Part shown: positions 51,332-62,803 of the stretch, in pieces
Numbering within the stretch: the stretch's first letter is position 1
Layout: each line of letters opens with the position of its first letter
Assembly (NCBI GenBank): GCA_013042375.1
Contig: JABDQH010000073.1
Span: 62,001-126,000 of the forward strand
Source of the DNA: Woeseiaceae bacterium
GTDB taxonomy: Bacteria; Pseudomonadota; Gammaproteobacteria; Steroidobacterales; Woeseiaceae
DNA length: 64,000 nt
Direction: 5' to 3'
Notes under the pieces: model-generated
Seen by the model: the letters and a program-made list of their open reading frames with translations, nothing else
The model's database searches: none
Told to the model about the DNA's origin: nothing
Program-made: the position numbers and the translations under genes

Positions 51332-52423
<1,092 letters not shown>

Positions 52424-52674: not shown

Positions 52675-52747
52675 GCCAATGGGTTTAGCGGTTGCCACCG
52701 GCACGACGGACAGTGACAATGCCGCCTCCACAATTCAGGGAGTTGCG

Positions 52748-54493
52748 ATGAAAAGGACCGGGATTGTCTGTACTTTGCTGCTGCTCGTGGCAGCGGGATC
52801 CGCGCTGGCCGACGCGACCGACGACTTTCGTGCGCTGCTCGACGAGCACTGGGAATGGACACTGAAAAACCGGCCGGTGCTGGCGTCGACGATGGGCGAC
52901 CGCCGCTACAACCGCGACTGGACCGACACCAGTCCTGCCGCCATCGAGCGGCGCCGCAAGGAGACGCGTGAGTTCCTGCGCCGCGCCTACGCCATCGACC
53001 GGGACGCGCTGGCCGACGACGACCGGCTCAATCACGAGCTGTTCCGTCGCATGCTGCAGGACGACGTCGACCAACACCGCTTTGACGGCCACCTGCTGCC
53101 GTTCTCGCAGCGCGGCGGCGTGCAGAATCTCGACAACACGACGAATCGGCTGCGCCTCGAAAGCGTGGCCGACTACGACGACTGGCTCGCGCGTCTCGGC
53201 AAGATCGATGACGTCGTCAACCAGACGATCGCGCTCGCCGAGAAAGGCCGCAGGTCCGGCATCACGGCGCCCAGGGTCCTCATGGAGCGCATCCCGGACC
53301 AGATCGCCGTGCAGCTGGTCGAGTCGCCTGCCGACAGCCCGTTCTTCAGGCCGTTTGCGAACCTGCCCGAGCGGATTCCACCGGCCGAGCGCGAGCGCCT
53401 GCGGGCGACCGCCAGCGACGTCATCGAGAAGACCGTGCTGCCCGCCTACCGCAGGCTCGATAGCTACTTCAGCAACAAGTACCTGCCCGCGGCGCGCGAC
53501 ACGATCGGCCTGTCGGCCTTGCCGAACGGCTCGGACTGGTACGAACTGCGCGCGCGGACCTACACGACGACACGGATGACGCCGGACGAGATTCACCGCG
53601 TCGGTCTCGACGAGGTCAGGCGCATTCGGGGCGAGATGGAGGAGATCATCGCGGAGGTGGGCTTCGATGGCGGTTTCGCCGATTTCCTCGAGCACCTGCG
53701 CACCGACCCGCAGTTCTACTTCGACGATCCCGACGACCTGTACCAGGCCTACCTCGCGACCAGCAAGCGCATCGATCCCGAGCTCGTCAGGCTGTTCGGC
53801 AAACTGCCGCGCATGCCCTACGGCGTCAAACCGATCCCCGCCGCCATCGCGCCGGACACGACGACAGCTTATTACTCGCGGCCGGCCGGCGACGGCAGCC
53901 GCGCGGGCATTTACTGGGTCAATCTTTACAGGCCCGAGGTGCGGCCCAAATACGAGATCGAGGTCCTGAGCGTCCACGAGGCCATGCCAGGCCATCACCT
54001 GCAGCTCGCGCTGCAGCAGGAACTCGGCGAGCTGCCGATGTTCCGCCGCTTCATGGGGTTCACGGCCTTCGTCGAAGGCTGGGGCCTCTACAGCGAGCGC
54101 CTCGGCTACGACCTCGGGCTATACGAAGACCCCTACTCACGCTTCGGGCAACTGACCTATGACATGTGGCGCGCCGTCCGGCTCGTCGTCGACACGGGCA
54201 TGCATTACAAGGGCTGGACGCGACAGCAGGCCATCGACTTTTTCAAGGACAACGCCGCCAAGACCGAGCACGACATCGTCAACGAGATCGACCGCTACAT
54301 CTCGTGGCCCGGCCAGGCGCTCGCCTACAAGATCGGCCAGCTGAAGATCCTGCAGCTGCGCGCGCGCGCCGAGGTCGAGCTCGGCGAACGATTCGACATC
54401 CGCGCGTTCCACGACGAATTGCTCGGCGCGGGGGCGCTGCCGCTCGACCTGCTCGAGCGGCGCATGGACCGCTGGATGGCGGCACAGCAGTAG
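52748..54493 (+). CDS. DUF885-family putative metallopeptidase, secreted
   Basis: 581 residues from ATG 52748, with a GGGAG about 6 nt upstream. Signal peptide to SALADA. DUF885 proteins have a gluzincin-like HExxPGHH motif, here HEAMPGHHLQ near residue 415, with a downstream Glu in FVEGWGLYSERLG as third ligand candidate. Probably an exported zinc carboxypeptidase or oligopeptidase. Shares its upstream region with the riboswitch-controlled gcv operon. REP copy 2 lies 12 bp after the stop. Confidence 0.88.
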   Translation: MKRTGIVCTLLLLVAAGSALADATDDFRALLDEHWEWTLKNRPVLASTMGDRRYNRDWTDTSPAAIERRRKETREFLRRAYAIDRDALADDDRLNHELFRRMLQDDVDQHRFDGHLLPFSQRGGVQNLDNTTNRLRLESVADYDDWLARLGKIDDVVNQTIALAEKGRRSGITAPRVLMERIPDQIAVQLVESPADSPFFRPFANLPERIPPAERERLRATASDVIEKTVLPAYRRLDSYFSNKYLPAARDTIGLSALPNGSDWYELRARTYTTTRMTPDEIHRVGLDEVRRIRGEMEEIIAEVGFDGGFADFLEHLRTDPQFYFDDPDDLYQAYLATSKRIDPELVRLFGKLPRMPYGVKPIPAAIAPDTTTAYYSRPAGDGSRAGIYWVNLYRPEVRPKYEIEVLSVHEAMPGHHLQLALQQELGELPMFRRFMGFTAFVEGWGLYSERLGYDLGLYEDPYSRFGQLTYDMWRAVRLVVDTGMHYKGWTRQQAIDFFKDNAAKTEHDIVNEIDRYISWPGQALAYKIGQLKILQLRARAEVELGERFDIRAFHDELLGAGALPLDLLERRMDRWMAAQQ

Positions 54494-54587: not shown

Positions 54588-57500
54588 TTATTCCTTCGAC
54601 CATTCCGGTATGCGTCCCGGCGTCCACGGTGCACCCTTGAGTTCGAGCGTGTCTTCCAGCGCCTCGACGTCGGTCGCCAGCGTACGCAAGGACTGCAGCG
54701 CAACAGCAAACTCCCGCGCGGCGACCGCATAGGAGTCGCGGTAATTGCCGCCCACCGCGGACTGCGAATATACGAGCCTGTTATAAAGCGACGAGACCCG
54801 GGATGCGATCGGCAGCGGCACGGGCTCGTTACGCCCGCCAATCGTGCTGTCGCCCTGTAGCGCTACGCCGAGATCTGCCAGGCGTTCCTCGAGTTGTCGC
54901 AGCACGTCGCGCTCGACATCCCCCGCAGCAGGCGTCACGGGAATCGCCGCACGCACGTGCGCGAGCCGGTTCTGCAGTTCGCTCATCGCCTTGTTGCTGC
55001 CCTGCACGGCGCGCTGCAGCTCGGCGACCCTGACCTGGAAGTCCTGCAACGCCTTGCGGTCGCTCGTAATCTCGGGGCTGGCATCGAGTGACTTGACCGT
55101 GAACGAAACCGCGTCGCCTGTTTCTTCCAGCACACCGTCGCGCTCCACCCCGAGGCGCGCCGTGTACGTGCCGGGCAGTACCAGCGGCCCTGCAGGGTCG
55201 CTCATCCAGTACGGTCGATCTTCGGCCGGCGCGATATTCACCGGATCGGGCGGCGGCAGGCGCAGGTCCCAGGCCGTGCGATGCAGTCCGCCGCCCGTAT
55301 TCGCGGCAACCTGGCGCACGAGACGGCCGCCGGCATCGCGAATCAATATGTAGAGCGCCGGGCCCTGTTCGCGATCCTCAATACGCAGATCGTCCCACGC
55401 GGGGTACGGCGTATCGCCGCCCTCTTCCTCGATCTCGATTTCCTGCTCGCGCCGTACTTCCTTGCGCGACTTCAGCCCGTCTTCGAGGTAATAGGTGAAC
55501 ACGGCGCCAAACTCGGGGTTGGGTGCCGTGAAGAAGCCATGGCCAATAGAGCCTTTCTCCTGGCCGCCCCAGAGATCGCCCTCGATGTACAACCACGGGT
55601 CGCGCGGCGCAAACAGGTGCAGTTCGTCGAGATCGGCTGCACGGGTACGCAACGGCGTGTAGTCGTCGAGGATGTAAATGCCGCGACCGAACGTGCCGAC
55701 GACCAGGTCATTCTCGCGTTCCTGGATCTCGATGTCGCGGACCGAGATCGTCGGGAAACCGCTCTTCAGCTGGCTCCAGGAGCCGCCGCCGTCCTGGCTG
55801 GCGAAGACCCCGTACTCGGTGCCCAGGAACAGCAGGTTCGGATCGACGTGATCCTCGACGATGCTGTGCGCAAAGCCGCGCTCGGGCAGGTCGCCGCTGA
55901 TCGACTTGAAGCTGCGGCCGCGATTGGTCGACTTGAGGACATAGGGCTTGTAGTCGCCGCGCTTGTGATTTTCCATGACCGCGTACACCACGTCGGCGTC
56001 GTGCGCGGACGCGAGTACGTCGTCGATATAGGTCATGTCGGGCACGCCGGCAAACTTGGTCGTGCGCCGCCAGCTCTGGCCGCCGTCCTCGGTCACGTTG
56101 AGCACACCGTCGTCAGTCCCGACATAGATCAGGCCTTCCTGCAGCTTGCTCTCGCTGATCATGATCGCGCTGCCATAGATCGAGGTCGAGTCGTTCTTGG
56201 CAATCGTGTCGATACCCCAGACGCGACCCATGACGTCGAGCTTGTTGCGATCGAGCTGCCGGGTCAGGTCCGGGCTGACCTTGCGCCAGCTGTCGCCGCG
56301 ATCGTCGGAGCGGAACAGGTACTCGGACGCGTAGTAGAGGCGCTTCGGATCGTGCGGGCTGACGATGAGCGGCGTATTCCAGTTCCATTTGTAGTCGTTC
56401 TCACCGCTCTCCGGCAGCGGCGCAATATAGACGCGCTCCTGCGTGCGACGGTCGTAGCGCGCCAGTCCGCCGTACTGGTATTGCGCATAGAGTATGTCGG
56501 CATCGGTCGGGTCGAACTGCGGCTCGTAGCCGTCGCCGCCCAGCACCAGGTTCCAGTCCGAGTTGGTGATGCCGTGCTCGTTCGTCGTGCGCGACGGCGC
56601 GCACAGCGAGTTGTTGTCCTGCGTGCCGCCGCAGACGTTGTAGAACGGCTCGTTGTAATCGGGCTGGATACGGTAGAACTGCGTGATCGACAGGTTGCGC
56701 ACATGCCGCCACGTGCTGCCCCGATCCCAGGTCTCGTAGATGCCGCCGTCGCCACCGATGTACAGATGCTTCGTGTTGTCCGGATCGATCCACAGGGCGT
56801 GGTCGTCAACGTGCCGCCATTGGTTGGATAACGCGCTGAACGTTACGCCGCCATCCTCGGACATCATCGTGAAGGTGTTGAGTGCATACAGGCGCTCGGC
56901 GTTCTGCGGATCGACGACGATCTCGTTGTAGTACTGCGGACTCGTCGTCATGTAGCTCGAGCGCTTCTCCCAGTTGCTGCCGAAATCGGTCGAGCGGTAA
57001 ACGCCCTTTTCGTCGTCGTTCGCCTCGACGATCGCGTAGATCATGTCGGGGTCGCTCGGCGCGCCCGCCAGACCGATGCGGCCCATATGGTCTGACGGCA
57101 GCCCCGCCGTTACTTCTGTCCAGGTCTTGCCGCGATCCGTCGATTTGTGAATGCCGCTGCCCGGACCACCGTTGATCAGTACCCACACGTGGCGGCGGCG
57201 CTGGTAGCTCGACGCCACGATGACGTCGGGATTGCGCGGATCGACGACGAACTCGTTGACGCCCGTATGCTCGTCGATCTCGAGAATTCGCTCCCAGGTT
57301 GCGCCGCCGTCGAGCGTGCGATACAGGCCGCGGTCGCCGCCGTCCTTCCACAGCGGCCCCTGCGCGGCGACCAGCACCTCGTCCGTGTCCTCGGGATTGA
57401 TCCAGATCTGGCTGATGTGTCCCGAGTCCCCGAGACCCATGTTCGTCCACGTCTTGCCGCCGTCGATGGATTTGTAGACGCCGTCTCCGGCGGCCACGCT

Positions 57501-57860
57501 GCGCTGTGCGTTGTTCTCGCCCGTGCCGACCCAGATCGTGTTGCTATCGTGAGGATCGAGTTCGACCACGCCGATCGCGTACGAGCCCTCGTTCTCGAAT
57601 ATCGGCTGCCACGTGATGCCGCCGTTATCCGTCCTGAAGAGGTTGCCCGACGCGACGCCAACCAGGAACTCGTGGTCTCCGCCCGGGTAGAACGCGAAGT
57701 CCGAAATGCGGCCCGAAGTGATCGCCGGGCCAATGTGCCGCAGCGGCAGCGACGCGAGCGGATTGCCCTCTTCCTCGTCGTCGGCAACCGCGGGGGAGAA
57801 TACGAAGCCGAGTATGCAGGCCATACCCAGGAACATTGGCAAGCGCAGAAGATTGCTCAT
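54588..57860 (-). CDS. Secreted Asp-box (BNR/sortilin-like) beta-propeller protein
   Basis: 1,090 residues with a signal peptide (about 1-26). At least eleven Asp-box repeats (S/T-x-D-x-G-x-T/S-W/F), such as RTDNGGITW, KSIDGGKTW, RTLDGGATW and RSDDRGDSW, fall between residues 75 and 720, predicting one or two large propellers like those of VPS10/sortilin and sialidases. The C-terminal 300 residues hold a beta domain and a helical, coiled-coil-like segment (VRVAELQRAVQGSNKAM). No sialidase Arg triad was recognised. GAGGT lies 7 nt before the ATG; 12 bp after the ATP-grasp gene. Confidence 0.85.
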   Translation of the reverse strand: MSNLLRLPMFLGMACILGFVFSPAVADDEEEGNPLASLPLRHIGPAITSGRISDFAFYPGGDHEFLVGVASGNLFRTDNGGITWQPIFENEGSYAIGVVELDPHDSNTIWVGTGENNAQRSVAAGDGVYKSIDGGKTWTNMGLGDSGHISQIWINPEDTDEVLVAAQGPLWKDGGDRGLYRTLDGGATWERILEIDEHTGVNEFVVDPRNPDVIVASSYQRRRHVWVLINGGPGSGIHKSTDRGKTWTEVTAGLPSDHMGRIGLAGAPSDPDMIYAIVEANDDEKGVYRSTDFGSNWEKRSSYMTTSPQYYNEIVVDPQNAERLYALNTFTMMSEDGGVTFSALSNQWRHVDDHALWIDPDNTKHLYIGGDGGIYETWDRGSTWRHVRNLSITQFYRIQPDYNEPFYNVCGGTQDNNSLCAPSRTTNEHGITNSDWNLVLGGDGYEPQFDPTDADILYAQYQYGGLARYDRRTQERVYIAPLPESGENDYKWNWNTPLIVSPHDPKRLYYASEYLFRSDDRGDSWRKVSPDLTRQLDRNKLDVMGRVWGIDTIAKNDSTSIYGSAIMISESKLQEGLIYVGTDDGVLNVTEDGGQSWRRTTKFAGVPDMTYIDDVLASAHDADVVYAVMENHKRGDYKPYVLKSTNRGRSFKSISGDLPERGFAHSIVEDHVDPNLLFLGTEYGVFASQDGGGSWSQLKSGFPTISVRDIEIQERENDLVVGTFGRGIYILDDYTPLRTRAADLDELHLFAPRDPWLYIEGDLWGGQEKGSIGHGFFTAPNPEFGAVFTYYLEDGLKSRKEVRREQEIEIEEEGGDTPYPAWDDLRIEDREQGPALYILIRDAGGRLVRQVAANTGGGLHRTAWDLRLPPPDPVNIAPAEDRPYWMSDPAGPLVLPGTYTARLGVERDGVLEETGDAVSFTVKSLDASPEITSDRKALQDFQVRVAELQRAVQGSNKAMSELQNRLAHVRAAIPVTPAAGDVERDVLRQLEERLADLGVALQGDSTIGGRNEPVPLPIASRVSSLYNRLVYSQSAVGGNYRDSYAVAAREFAVALQSLRTLATDVEALEDTLELKGAPWTPGRIPEWSKE

Positions 57861-57872
57861 TGGTCTACCTCA

Positions 57873-58823
57873 TCAGAGTTTGAATTCCTGCCGGCAAACG
57901 CCCGCGCGTTTTTCCGGCGTTGCTGCATCGTCATAGATTGCCTCGATGCGCGCGATGCGATCCGCCAGGCCGGCACGGTTCGCAATCTGGATGCTGAGCC
58001 CTGGCCGCGCATTCATCTCGAGGATCAGCGGCCCGCGGTCACGATCGATCACCATGTCGACACCGAGGTATCCGAGGCCGGTGACCTCGAATCCGCGCGC
58101 CGACGACGCGAGAATAAAGTCCCACTGCGGGATCTCGAGGCCGGCCACGAGCGCCCCCGTGTCCGGGTGTTCGTCGACGATCTCGTTGTCGAGTACACCG
58201 GTCGTCGTAATGCCGGTTCCCATGTCGATGCCGGCACCGACCGCGCCCTGGTGCAGGTTGGCTTTGCCGTCCGAGGCGCGCGTCGGCAGGCGCACCATGG
58301 CCATCGCAGGATAACCGCGGTAAACGACGACGCGAATGTCGGGCACACCCTGGTAGGACACCTCCGTGAACACGGGGTCGAACTGCACGCAGTACTCGAT
58401 CAGGGCCTTGTCAGGATTGCCGCTCAGGCTGTACTGGCCGCCGACGATGTTGGACAGGTGATAGAGAATTTCGTCTTCCGAGACGACCACGCCGCTCGAC
58501 AGGCGGAAACTGTCGCGCTTGCGCTCGCTGCGACCCGTTATGACGAAAATGCCGTCGCCGCCACTGCCCTGTGCCGGCTTGATCACGAAGCTCTCGTGAT
58601 TCTCGACGATAGCCGTAAACGACCGTACCTCGCCCTGGTTACGAATGATGCCATACAGATCCGGCACGGCCATGCCGGCCGCCAGGGCGAGTTCCTTGGT
58701 CAGCACCTTGTCATCGACACGCGGATAGAGCCGCCGCGGATTGAGGCGCATGATGAAGTCGGAGTTACGCTCGTTGAGTCCGAGCACACCGGCTTGATGA
58801 AGTTTTCTTGCCGCGTCCAGCAC
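57873..58823 (-). CDS. RimK-like ATP-grasp amino-acid ligase (alpha-L-glutamate-ligase-related)
   Basis: 316 residues from GTG 58823. ATP-grasp core: ESFVIKPAQGSGGDGIFVI (P-loop-like grasp), EYCVQFDP, DIRVVVYRG and the metal Glu/Asn of LILEMNARPGLSIQIANR. The N-terminal GVLGLNERNSDFIMRLNPRRLYP matches a subgroup related to RimK that is encoded next to a 7-TM inactive transglutaminase. It should form an amide bond from ATP and an amino acid or peptide; donor and acceptor are unknown. Starts 8 bp after its partner gene. Confidence 0.88.
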   Translation of the reverse strand: MLDAARKLHQAGVLGLNERNSDFIMRLNPRRLYPRVDDKVLTKELALAAGMAVPDLYGIIRNQGEVRSFTAIVENHESFVIKPAQGSGGDGIFVITGRSERKRDSFRLSSGVVVSEDEILYHLSNIVGGQYSLSGNPDKALIEYCVQFDPVFTEVSYQGVPDIRVVVYRGYPAMAMVRLPTRASDGKANLHQGAVGAGIDMGTGITTTGVLDNEIVDEHPDTGALVAGLEIPQWDFILASSARGFEVTGLGYLGVDMVIDRDRGPLILEMNARPGLSIQIANRAGLADRIARIEAIYDDAATPEKRAGVCRQEFKL

Positions 58824-58831
58824 CCCGGTAA

Positions 58832-60349
58832 CTAACCTCGCAATTCCTTGAACCGATGCAGCTCGGTCAGGCGGTAGCCCGTATAGCGTCCTGCCAGCAC
58901 AACCAGCGCGAGCACGACGAGCAGCAGTTCGGGAAATGTGAATACGATGTGTTCGAGCCACGGCAAGCCCATGAACGCATAGGCCGCAACCGCCACGAGC
59001 AGGCTGCCGAGTCCCGCCCGCATGGCGTCGGCGGCGCCGCGCTCCTCCCAGACCACCGACATGCGCTCGATGGTCATTGCGATGATCACCATCGGAAACA
59101 GCGCCACGGACAGACCGGTCTCGAGCCCGAGCCGATGCGACATCAGGCTGATGAACAACATGAGCAGGACCACGACGATCAGCACGGCGCTGAGTCGCGG
59201 CACGAGCAGCAGGCGCAGCCTCTCGAGCAGAAAGCGAATGCTGAGGCCGAGCGCGACGAGCAAGGTGAACAGGATGACGCCCCACAGCAGCCTGGTCTCG
59301 CGAAACGCAAGCGCGATCAGCACCGGCATGAACGTGCCGAAGGCATCGATGCCGACGATATTGCGCATGACGACCATGACCAGCGCACCGATCGGGATCA
59401 TGAGCAACACGCTGTACACAGCCTGCGTCTGGATCGGCAGGCTGTATAGCGAAAAGTCGAAGGCGCTGGTGCCTTGTTGACGGGCCTGCGTTTCCGCGAT
59501 GGCGATCGCATCGAGCTGGTTGCGCTGCACCGCAAATTCGACCCGCACCCGGCTGCCGCCTTCGACGTTCGCGAGCGGTTCGTTGCCGCGCCACCATACG
59601 AAGTAGCGATCCGGCAGAGTCTGCTCTCCCGTGGCCGGGTTGAAGTACAGCCAGCGATCGCCATCGTGAACCTCGAGCCACGGCAGGAGCGGCGCGTTGC
59701 GCTGCCGGCCGGCGAGCGCGAAGCCGTGAACCGTGCGTGCAGGAATGCGTGCCGAGGCAAGCAGGGTCGTCGCGACAGCAACGAATTCGGCCTCGCTGGT
59801 GACGTCCGACAGCAACAGTTCGACGTTGGCGTCGGGGGAGGGATCGTTCAGCCGGCGCAACAACTCGGTCGTGAACGATGCCGTGTCGGCTGACCGGTCG
59901 CGCACATCCGAGACCAGCACGTCGGCGGCCGTGGCGAGCGGCTCCTCGATAACGGGGCGCGGAGGGAACGGCGGCACGGTATCGGACTCGTCGACGGCAT
60001 CGTCCTCGTAAACCGAAATACGATAATAGATCGTCTGCTCGCCGTCGGCCCGGCGGATCGTCCACTGCGCTTCGCGCCCGCCGCTACCGTAATTGAGGCT
60101 GAAGCCATAGCCGCGGGAGACCGAATTTTCGTTGAGCGTCCTGAAACCCGGCGTCAGCGTCGGCACATGCAGCTGCGCCTTGATCGTGCCCGGGCCACTA
60201 TCGAAACGAACGGCCGCCTCGATCGTCCAGACGGGCCTCTCATGGTCCTCGCCGAGCGGGAAGCCGAGAACCTGCCACTTGTACAGGAAGATGGACGCAC
60301 CTATTACGGTCAGCAACGCGGCGAGCATATAAACATATCGCTGCTTCAT
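58832..60349 (-). CDS. Inactive transglutaminase-like protein with 7-TM C-terminal domain
   Basis: 505 residues: one N-terminal TM (about 8-25), a periplasmic region of about 280 residues with a transglutaminase-like core (ATTLLASARIPARTVHGFAL, LPWLEVHDGDRWLYFNPATGE) in which the catalytic Cys is missing, and seven TM helices from about 305 to 495. This protein is known as a constant partner of the RimK-like ligase next door. It may bind or present the ligase's peptide product at the membrane. 22 bp after ubiI. Confidence 0.87.
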   Translation of the reverse strand: MKQRYVYMLAALLTVIGASIFLYKWQVLGFPLGEDHERPVWTIEAAVRFDSGPGTIKAQLHVPTLTPGFRTLNENSVSRGYGFSLNYGSGGREAQWTIRRADGEQTIYYRISVYEDDAVDESDTVPPFPPRPVIEEPLATAADVLVSDVRDRSADTASFTTELLRRLNDPSPDANVELLLSDVTSEAEFVAVATTLLASARIPARTVHGFALAGRQRNAPLLPWLEVHDGDRWLYFNPATGEQTLPDRYFVWWRGNEPLANVEGGSRVRVEFAVQRNQLDAIAIAETQARQQGTSAFDFSLYSLPIQTQAVYSVLLMIPIGALVMVVMRNIVGIDAFGTFMPVLIALAFRETRLLWGVILFTLLVALGLSIRFLLERLRLLLVPRLSAVLIVVVLLMLFISLMSHRLGLETGLSVALFPMVIIAMTIERMSVVWEERGAADAMRAGLGSLLVAVAAYAFMGLPWLEHIVFTFPELLLVVLALVVLAGRYTGYRLTELHRFKELRG

Positions 60350-60371: not shown

Positions 60372-61574
60372 TCAATCGACGCCCAACGCGACCTTGACCG
60401 CGTGTTCTCTTATCGGTCCGCCGCGGTTGAAAACGCGCATGCCGGCCGCGCGAATTCCCTCGACGAACTTCGAGTCTGTCGCAAACAGGCGGTTCAGGCC
60501 AGTCATGAAATGCAGCATGGTCGCATTGGCACCCTTGCGCGCCCTCTCGTAGCGCCTCAGGACGGGTCGATCGCCGGGATGCAGGCCCGCACCGAGGGCG
60601 CGGTGCACCTGCCGCGCGAGCTCCGCGGCGTCCTGCAGCCCGAGGTTCGCGCCCTGCCCCGCGAGCGGATGAATCGCGTGTGCGGCGTCGCCAATGAGTG
60701 CCAGGTTCGGCAGCACATACTGCTGCGCATGACGGGCGCACAGCGGGAATGCGCCCCTGGGCCCGGCGACGCCGAGTTCCCCGAGGACGTAGTCCGATGC
60801 GTCACTCAGCATGCGCCCGAGCGCCACGTCGTCGGCATCGAGCGCCGCCTGTGCCCGCCCGGGCGTTGTCGACCAGACGACCGACACGCGGCCATCGGCG
60901 AGCGGCAGCATGCCGAGGGGGCCGTCGCGCAGGAAGCGCTGCCAGGCCGTGGCGCGATGCGGCTTCTCCGGTCGCAGGTGCGTGACAAATGCCGTCTGCT
61001 CGTAGGGCCACTCCTGCGCCTCGATACCGGCCGCCGAGCGCACGAACGAGCGCGCCCCGTCCGCGCCGACAACGAGGTCCGCCGCAAGCCGTGTACCGTT
61101 CCCGAGTTCGATGTCGTAGCACCGCGCCTCGCGCCTGACGGCCCGGATCGGGCACGCGAACCTGAGGTCAACCGGGGCGTCGTCGAGCCGTTGCAGCAGC
61201 GCGGCCTGCAGCAGGACATTCTCGACGATAAAGCCGAGCTGCGGCACGCCGAACTCCGCCGCATCGAAACGCAATGCCGTGGCGCTGTCCGGCGAATCGT
61301 TCTCATCCCAGACGCGCATGCTCTCGTAGGGACTCGCACGCATCGCCGCTACATGGTCCCAGGCGCCGACCTCCTCGAAGAGCGCGGCCGTCCCCGTGGC
61401 GATCGCAGAGACGCGCAATGCGACGTCGCCGTCGGGCGAGAAGTCCGGGCGCGGCGCGGCGTCGACGACCGTCACTTCCAGAGCTTCACCCGGCACGCCC
61501 CGGCCGAGCAGCATCGCCGCCATGAGGCCGGTCACGCCGCCGCCGACCACGACGACCCGGTAGCGCCTGTTCAT
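60372..61574 (-). CDS. ubiI: UbiH/UbiI-family FAD-dependent ubiquinone hydroxylase
   Basis: 400 residues. FAD monooxygenase of ubiquinone synthesis (C5 hydroxylase, formerly VisC). Motifs: VVVVGGGVTGLMAAMLL, DLVVGADGARSFVR and [24 protein letters not shown]. Position after ubiH supports UbiI, the E. coli pepP-ubiH-ubiI order; by sequence alone UbiF/COQ6 cannot be excluded. 4-bp overlap with ubiH. Confidence 0.9.
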   Translation of the reverse strand: MNRRYRVVVVGGGVTGLMAAMLLGRGVPGEALEVTVVDAAPRPDFSPDGDVALRVSAIATGTAALFEEVGAWDHVAAMRASPYESMRVWDENDSPDSATALRFDAAEFGVPQLGFIVENVLLQAALLQRLDDAPVDLRFACPIRAVRREARCYDIELGNGTRLAADLVVGADGARSFVRSAAGIEAQEWPYEQTAFVTHLRPEKPHRATAWQRFLRDGPLGMLPLADGRVSVVWSTTPGRAQAALDADDVALGRMLSDASDYVLGELGVAGPRGAFPLCARHAQQYVLPNLALIGDAAHAIHPLAGQGANLGLQDAAELARQVHRALGAGLHPGDRPVLRRYERARKGANATMLHFMTGLNRLFATDSKFVEGIRAAGMRVFNRGGPIREHAVKVALGVD

Positions 61575-62803
61575 CTGACGGGCACGCCTCGCGAGAGACG
61601 CGGCAGGCGTCCCGCGAGACCCATCGTGTGCCGCGCGAATACCCTGCGCACACCGGGAACGAGATCGAAACCGAGCATGCCGATGTTGCGCAGTACGCGC
61701 AGTGGTCGTCGTTCGCTGCCGAACAGCTTCACGAGACTGTCAGTGAAGCGCACGAGCTTCTTCTGATCGGCACGCCGCCAGTCGGCGTAGCGCGAGAGTA
61801 TGGCCGTGGCGCCCGGGTCGAAATCCCCGGACTGTGTGCGTGCGTCGGCGATGCAGTCGACGATCGCCGCGACGTCACGCATGCCGAGATTGAAACCTTG
61901 TGCCGATACGGGGTGCAGGCCGTGCGCAGAATTTCCGATGAGGACGCTGCGCGTCGCCGTGAGGCGTAGCGCCTTGCTCAGTATCAACGGGTAGGACACG
62001 CGCTTGCCGATACGCGAGAAGCGCCCGAGCCGGTGACCGAACTGGGCCTGCAGCTCGCCAAGAAAGGCGTGGTCGTCGAGCGCCATGACGCGGTCGGCAT
62101 CGTCAGCCGAAACGGTCCAAACGAATCCGGCCCGTCCGTCCGCGACGGGCAGGACGGCGAGCGGCCCCTGCGGCGTGAAGCGCTCGTAGGCCACATTGTC
62201 GATGGCTTTTTCGGTCAACAGGTTGCCGATGACCGCCCGCTGCCCATAGCTGCTTTGCTGCGCCGTGATCCCGAGCATGTCGCGCACCGTCGAATTGGCG
62301 CCGTCGGCAGCGACGAGCAGCGCACAGGCCAGGGTCTGGCGCTCGCCCGACGCAAACTCGACGCTGGCCCTGGCGGCGTCTTTTGCAAGCTCGACGTCGA
62401 CGATGCGCGCGGGACACAGCACGTCAATAGACTGTTCGTCGAGGGCCGCCTGCAGCACGCCGCCGAGCACGCGGTTAATGACGACGTAGCCGAGCGCCTC
62501 GACGCGCTGCTCGTCGGCGTCGATATGCGAGAAACCGAAGCGTCCCTGGTCCGAGACGTGAATCGCCCGAATCGGTGTCGACGCCGCGACGATGTCGGGC
62601 CACAGGCCCATCGCCTCGAACATGCGCTGGGTGCTGCGCGACAGCGCCGTGGAGCGATCGTCAAAACTCGGTTGCGCGGCCTCGCGGCGCGCGACGGCCT
62701 CGACGACGGCGACGCGCAGGCCGAGCGGCGCCAGCGCGAGCGCAAGACTGGTACCGATCATGCCGCCGCCGGCTATGACGATGTCGTAGTCGCGTTTGTT
62801 CAT
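61571..62803 (-). CDS. ubiH: 2-octaprenyl-6-methoxyphenol hydroxylase
   Basis: 410 residues. C1 hydroxylase of the ubiquinone pathway. FAD motifs DIVIAGGGMIGTSLALALA, LVAADGANSTVR and LIGNSAHGLHPVSAQGFNLGMRD, the latter with GNSAH in place of GDAAH, a UbiH-like variation. The start overlaps the pepP stop as ATGA. Oxygen-dependent, which fits the aerobic kynurenine route in this window. Confidence 0.92.
   Translation of the reverse strand: MNKRDYDIVIAGGGMIGTSLALALAPLGLRVAVVEAVARREAAQPSFDDRSTALSRSTQRMFEAMGLWPDIVAASTPIRAIHVSDQGRFGFSHIDADEQRVEALGYVVINRVLGGVLQAALDEQSIDVLCPARIVDVELAKDAARASVEFASGERQTLACALLVAADGANSTVRDMLGITAQQSSYGQRAVIGNLLTEKAIDNVAYERFTPQGPLAVLPVADGRAGFVWTVSADDADRVMALDDHAFLGELQAQFGHRLGRFSRIGKRVSYPLILSKALRLTATRSVLIGNSAHGLHPVSAQGFNLGMRDVAAIVDCIADARTQSGDFDPGATAILSRYADWRRADQKKLVRFTDSLVKLFGSERRPLRVLRNIGMLGFDLVPGVRRVFARHTMGLAGRLPRLSRGVPVR

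Follow-up and report, generated by a model that had tools for sequence, protein, structure and literature searches.

The rlo operon of P. aeruginosa PA14 (PA14_41690/41710/41730; PA1768-PA1767-PA1766 in PAO1) was characterised genetically as rloABC in 2025 in mBio (PMC12239564). Growth on hypo-osmotic medium depends on three secreted, retropepsin-like RloA proteases, which are redundant with one another and oppose RloBC: the deletion of rloB or rloC fully restores growth of the triple rloA mutant under hypo-osmotic conditions, and RloBC without any RloA is harmful on low salt (PMC12239564). In vitro, RloA cleaves runs of at least eight glutamates (8-Glu substrates), and the operon has effects on tolerance of osmotic stress, on biofilm and cell shape, and on sensitivity to antibiotics (beta-lactams) (PMC12239564). 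A suppressor screen in P. aeruginosa recovered insertions in the same operon, PA1766-PA1768 (PMC7314104), and in a vesicle-producing bacterium the disruption of an inactive-transglutaminase/7TM gene altered the number and size of vesicles (PMC12096838).

We analysed a 64,000-nucleotide stretch of a Woeseiaceae genome (hereafter the window, G000:C31:62001-126000; the source MAG is 2.76 Mb in size and 84% complete), and found that it contains a gene pair that corresponds to RloB and RloC of the rlo operon, in a lineage without RloA. The minus-strand gene order is pepP (which runs past the window edge), ubiH (61571..62803; TIGR01984 and PRK05732 above cut-off), ubiI (60372..61574; a UbiH/UbiF family hydroxylase, TIGR01988 at 394 bits), the rloB-like gene (58832..60349), the rloC-like gene (57873..58823) and a beta-propeller gene (54588..57860), followed by a convergent DUF885 gene on the plus strand (52679..54493; PF05960) and by gcvT on the minus strand (51332..52423), which marks the far side of the block; the ubi genes and gcvT are context rather than parts of the system. 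The rloB-like ORF begins 22 bp after ubiI and encodes 505 amino acids from an ATG. For the rloC-like gene, alignment to relatives gave as the best start the GTG at 58823, 8 bp past the rloB stop (the open frame reaches 58835), which yields 316 amino acids, and the ORF ends at 57873, 12 bp ahead of the propeller gene. The initial annotation had placed an ATP-grasp gene and a Cys-free transglutaminase-like membrane gene between ubiI and a propeller gene, and the genes, strand and spacings were all confirmed. The propeller protein itself is a large BNR/Vps10-type protein (PF15902, BNR repeats) with a signal-like N-terminal stretch, and the DUF885 protein has an HEAMPGHH motif and a signal-like N terminus.

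The rloC-like protein matched TIGR02291 at 436.5 bits, above the cut-off of 314.2, and PF14397 at 1e-86. The AF2 model (pLDDT 94) had as its best solved match ArgX with bound glutamate (Z 18.5 over 218 residues, 3.4 Å); the comparison with the poly-alpha-glutamate synthetase RimK gave Z 17.7 over 214 residues at 2.9 Å, and D-Ala-D-Ala ligases come next in the list of folds. The RimK segments DIR, NLH.G, GVD and E.N align to RloC, and across 48 homologues they show little or no variation, so the ATP-grasp catalytic residues are retained across relatives and not lost, and the earlier proposal of a cytosolic RimK-like ligase is borne out as a RimK/ArgX-type enzyme. The RimK N-terminal domain (PF18030) had no match in RloC, nor in the window's own genome as assembled (84% complete). 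The fold and motifs of RloC, together with the preference of RloA in vitro, suggest that RloC is specific for glutamate.

The rloB-like protein has an N-terminal transmembrane segment, a periplasmic transglutaminase-like domain and a C-terminal 7TM-family domain. It matched PF14400 (8e-49) and PF14402 (5e-104), both by a wide margin over the cut-off, and, over its full length, the NCBIfam model for RloB, NF052267 (519 bits, which is below that model's narrow 'exception' cut-off of 900). In the AF2 model (pLDDT 85), residues 37-279 resemble the transglutaminase-like structure 3isr (Z 14.5 over 219 residues, 3.9 Å), and a profile comparison matched the periplasmic domain to the periplasmic transglutaminase TgpA (6g49) at E 0.015, with the Cys-bearing stretch of TgpA aligned to a Glu in the RloB profile. 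The whole protein contains zero cysteines and therefore cannot be a Cys-dependent transglutaminase, in agreement with the Cys-less domain that had been described at first reading; RloB may bind the product of RloC or hand it on. The membrane part also matched 8ahx, a subunit of RNF (Z 8.7), and AcrB (Z about 7), but these matches were set aside and not used, because helical bundles reach such Z values by their common arrangement.

The linkage of the two genes was evaluated in 80 related loci. It was found that rloC directly follows rloB in all 76 relatives with room for it, and so the pair is conserved as a unit. Upstream of rloB, ubiI was present in 68 of the 73 relatives with room, and in relatives with enough flank gcvT lay no more than 9 kb from rloC in 55 of 57. 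The propeller gene adjoined rloC in just 4 of these 57, which are close relatives, and was rejected as a conserved partner. In some Steroidobacter relatives (L118:8340-10004, and also L116, L119 and L123), an AidB/acyl-CoA dehydrogenase-like gene lies between ubiI and rloB, with its stop overlapping the rloB start.

The same block also exists without the pair. In E. coli K-12 the order is pepP-ubiH-ubiI-gcvT-gcvH-gcvP, and no rlo gene separates ubiI from gcvT. A genome of the window's genus (G069, 96% complete) has no RloB and continues from pepP-ubiH-ubiI directly to DUF885 and gcvT, an empty site. The pair is not linked to ubi genes wherever it occurs, and the RloA-bearing operons examined had neither ubiI nor gcvT nearby. 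Because rloBC is placed in a widespread ubi-gcv block that is also present without it, its association with the ubiquinone genes is a matter of position; the link with ubiquinone implied by the initial annotation was not upheld, and the position of rloBC in the ubiquinone operon looks incidental.

To survey the class, we used 281 Gammaproteobacteria, all of which except the window's own genome are at least 95% complete, and retained 53 genomes with a strong RloB match, leaving out matches below 300 bits as a more distant type. In 50 of these 53 genomes a same-strand PF05618 (RimB/RloA family) gene ends 770-908 bp before the 7TM domain. The three exceptions were the window, G099 (same genus) and G325 (same order), and so all are in the window's order. 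The proteins encoded at the site upstream of rloB mostly start with a signal peptide or lipobox, as judged by eye and not with a predictor. Within the Woeseiaceae, the upstream protein of genus g11 matched 9G58/9G59, the crystal structures of RloA, at 2e-16; the RloA-bearing operon of g11 belongs to a different part of the tree, and the genus has no pair linked to ubi genes. In the distant PF14402 type (about 50-190 bits; G342:C5, G208:C1, G262:C248, G372:C9), the PF05618 gene is often close by but on the other strand, and not upstream in the same orientation; this is possibly a second Rlo-like arrangement.

The first reading of the sequence had noted that a RimB-type protease is not in the window. 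This holds, and PF05618 was absent not only from the locus but also from the rest of the 84% complete genome. An RloA profile gave no credible match in 26 RloA-less genomes (one match was at chance level, E 0.27), compared to about 1e-57 in three control genomes; among the 26 are Woeseiaceae genomes that are 96-100% complete and isolates of Steroidobacter and Peristeroidobacter with genomes of 7-8 Mb. The absence of RloA from the window's own incomplete genome is thus supported by its being lineage-wide, and is not proven by that genome alone. In the window's genus, the sampled PF05618 genes resemble RimB; most have no signal peptide (by eye) and most are unlinked. A PF05618-like gene occurred near rloBC in only 3 of the 80 related loci (L075, L078 and L086, of one subclade), and there it belongs to the RimB type without a signal; RimB was therefore rejected as the partner of the pair. 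In L086 (7323-9734; G038:C3), from one Woeseiaceae subclade, rloC is followed in one run by rimB, a succinylglutamate desuccinylase/aspartoacylase-family gene and rimK, and RimB-type fragments lie at about the same position in L075 and L078. Because RloA is absent from the locus, the genome and the 26 relatives, this is an RloBC pair and not a full rloABC operon.

In a wider sample that included Woeseiaceae, Steroidobacteraceae and isolates, the RloA-less sequences formed one side of a single branch, with an SH-aLRT value of 100 in the RloB tree and 98 in the RloC tree. The choice of RloA-less sequences for this sample depended in part on their similarity to the window; the class survey did not select in that way and shows the same split (G325). 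A single loss of RloA would be the simplest reading of these trees, for which no root was inferred. Marine life alone does not explain the RloA-less state, because Steroidobacter isolates, whose sources are soil and comparable habitats, share it.

The RloA-less pair appears to be maintained by selection. Pairwise dN/dS values were 0.06-0.18 for both rloB and rloC, and the residues conserved in RloA-bearing operons are also kept in the RloA-less pair. The kept residues, the low dN/dS and the lineage-wide absence of RloA together indicate a natural, selected "rloA-minus" lineage. Requiring 85% conservation in both groups, we found no residue differences in RloB or RloC that split RloA-bearing from RloA-less sequences. 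The best reading is that this is the same ligase/membrane machine, in which RloA has become dispensable or an unlinked hydrolase has taken its place. Since loss of RloA is harmful in P. aeruginosa, the lineage must differ from that species in something outside what the RloB and RloC sequences reveal, and must either limit the product or use another hydrolase. We propose tentatively, at somewhat less than even odds, that stable, lineage-wide RloBC without an RloA-type protease means that product length is intrinsically limited or controlled by another hydrolase, and that the product would be a finished envelope component and not an intermediate in need of trimming.

Two other accounts of the missing protease were weighed. 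An RloA that is present but too diverged for recognition, or that lies in unassembled sequence, would fit with the incompleteness of the window's MAG and with adjacent RloA sequences being only about one third identical to each other; we regard it as very improbable, because none was found in the 26 genomes, nearly complete Woeseiaceae and large isolates among them, in a search that recovered the controls strongly, and the few PF05618-like genes near rloBC are of the signal-less RimB type. That an unlinked periplasmic hydrolase with no homology to RloA, either a different aspartyl peptidase or a metallopeptidase, has specifically taken over its role is rather unlikely. It would reconcile the harm done by unopposed RloBC in P. 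aeruginosa with the purifying selection on rloBC seen here without RloA, yet no consistent substitute emerged among the candidates looked at, PF13650 and the neighbouring DUF885. The PF13650 aspartyl protease family is absent from G000, G101 and G004 and occurs in RloA-bearing genomes too, and DUF885 was rejected because it remains beside gcvT where rloBC is missing, both at the empty G069 site and in the g11 genomes; it belongs to the gcv neighbourhood across the Woeseiaceae, with or without rloBC.

Our preferred explanation, to which we assign a probability of about 60%, is that the pair is RloBC in an RloA-less lineage, in which RloC would join glutamate, RloB would couple this to the membrane, and trimming would be unlinked or unneeded. 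RloC would use ATP to join glutamate to some acceptor in the cytosol by a RimK/ArgX-type carboxylate-amine ligation, giving a product that is probably poly-alpha-glutamate. RloB may present or export this product to the periplasm, with its transglutaminase-like domain acting in binding without catalysis, and the product may there affect the envelope and its osmotic properties. In species that have RloA, this secreted retropepsin-like protease would trim the product, and in the RloA-less lineage an unlinked hydrolase would do so, or the product would be limited in length so that no trimming is needed. An unlikely substrate, but one that the Pfam name of PF14397 ('sugar-transfer associated ATP-grasp'), the D-Ala-D-Ala ligases in the fold list and the altered cell shape and beta-lactam sensitivity of P. 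aeruginosa rlo mutants bring to mind, is a lipid-linked or peptidoglycan intermediate: RloC would then ligate an amino acid to a glycan or cell-wall precursor instead of making polyglutamate, and RloB would flip it or hand it over. No glycosyltransferase or wall gene turned up as a conserved neighbour of rloBC, however, the nearest structures to RloC are ArgX and RimK, and RloA prefers oligo-Glu in vitro. We give almost no credence to a role of rloBC in ubiquinone metabolism, which is suggested by the frequent presence of ubiI upstream and contradicted by E. coli and G069, which have the block without rloBC, and by the RloA-bearing operons examined, which lie away from ubiI and gcvT.

The pair had been put forward as the best candidate for an undescribed system, but RloB, RloC and the rlo operon are already known from P. 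aeruginosa; what is new here is that a whole lineage keeps RloBC without the secreted RloA. The accompanying remark that no product is known for such a pair is still true of RloB and RloC in any species. The RloA-less lineage naturally separates the synthetic half, RloBC, from the protease, and a comparison of both kinds of RloBC, or a search for the product in RloA-less species, could reveal both the product and the need for RloA.

In comparison to known systems, RloC shares the ATP-grasp ligase fold and catalytic motifs of RimK in the RimK-RimB system of S6 polyglutamylation, and a RimB relative, RloA, is its usual partner in other species; it differs in having no match to the RimK N-terminal domain, in being partnered by a membrane protein and in having no protease here. 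ArgX/LysX, which add Glu or aminoadipate to LysW, include the best structural match to RloC, solved with Glu bound, although the identity is about 15% and no carrier-protein gene was recognised at the rloBC locus. TgpA and other membrane proteins with transglutaminase-like periplasmic domains share the fold of the periplasmic domain of RloB, which differs in lacking the catalytic Cys and in its membrane domain. The closest system is rloABC of P. aeruginosa PA14: the window's locus differs from it in that RloA is missing, both upstream and in the rest of the lineage, and in its site between ubiI and gcvT, and shares with it the domain make-up of RloB and RloC, the order rloB-rloC, and the combination of a cytosolic ligase with a membrane protein that bears an inactive periplasmic transglutaminase domain.
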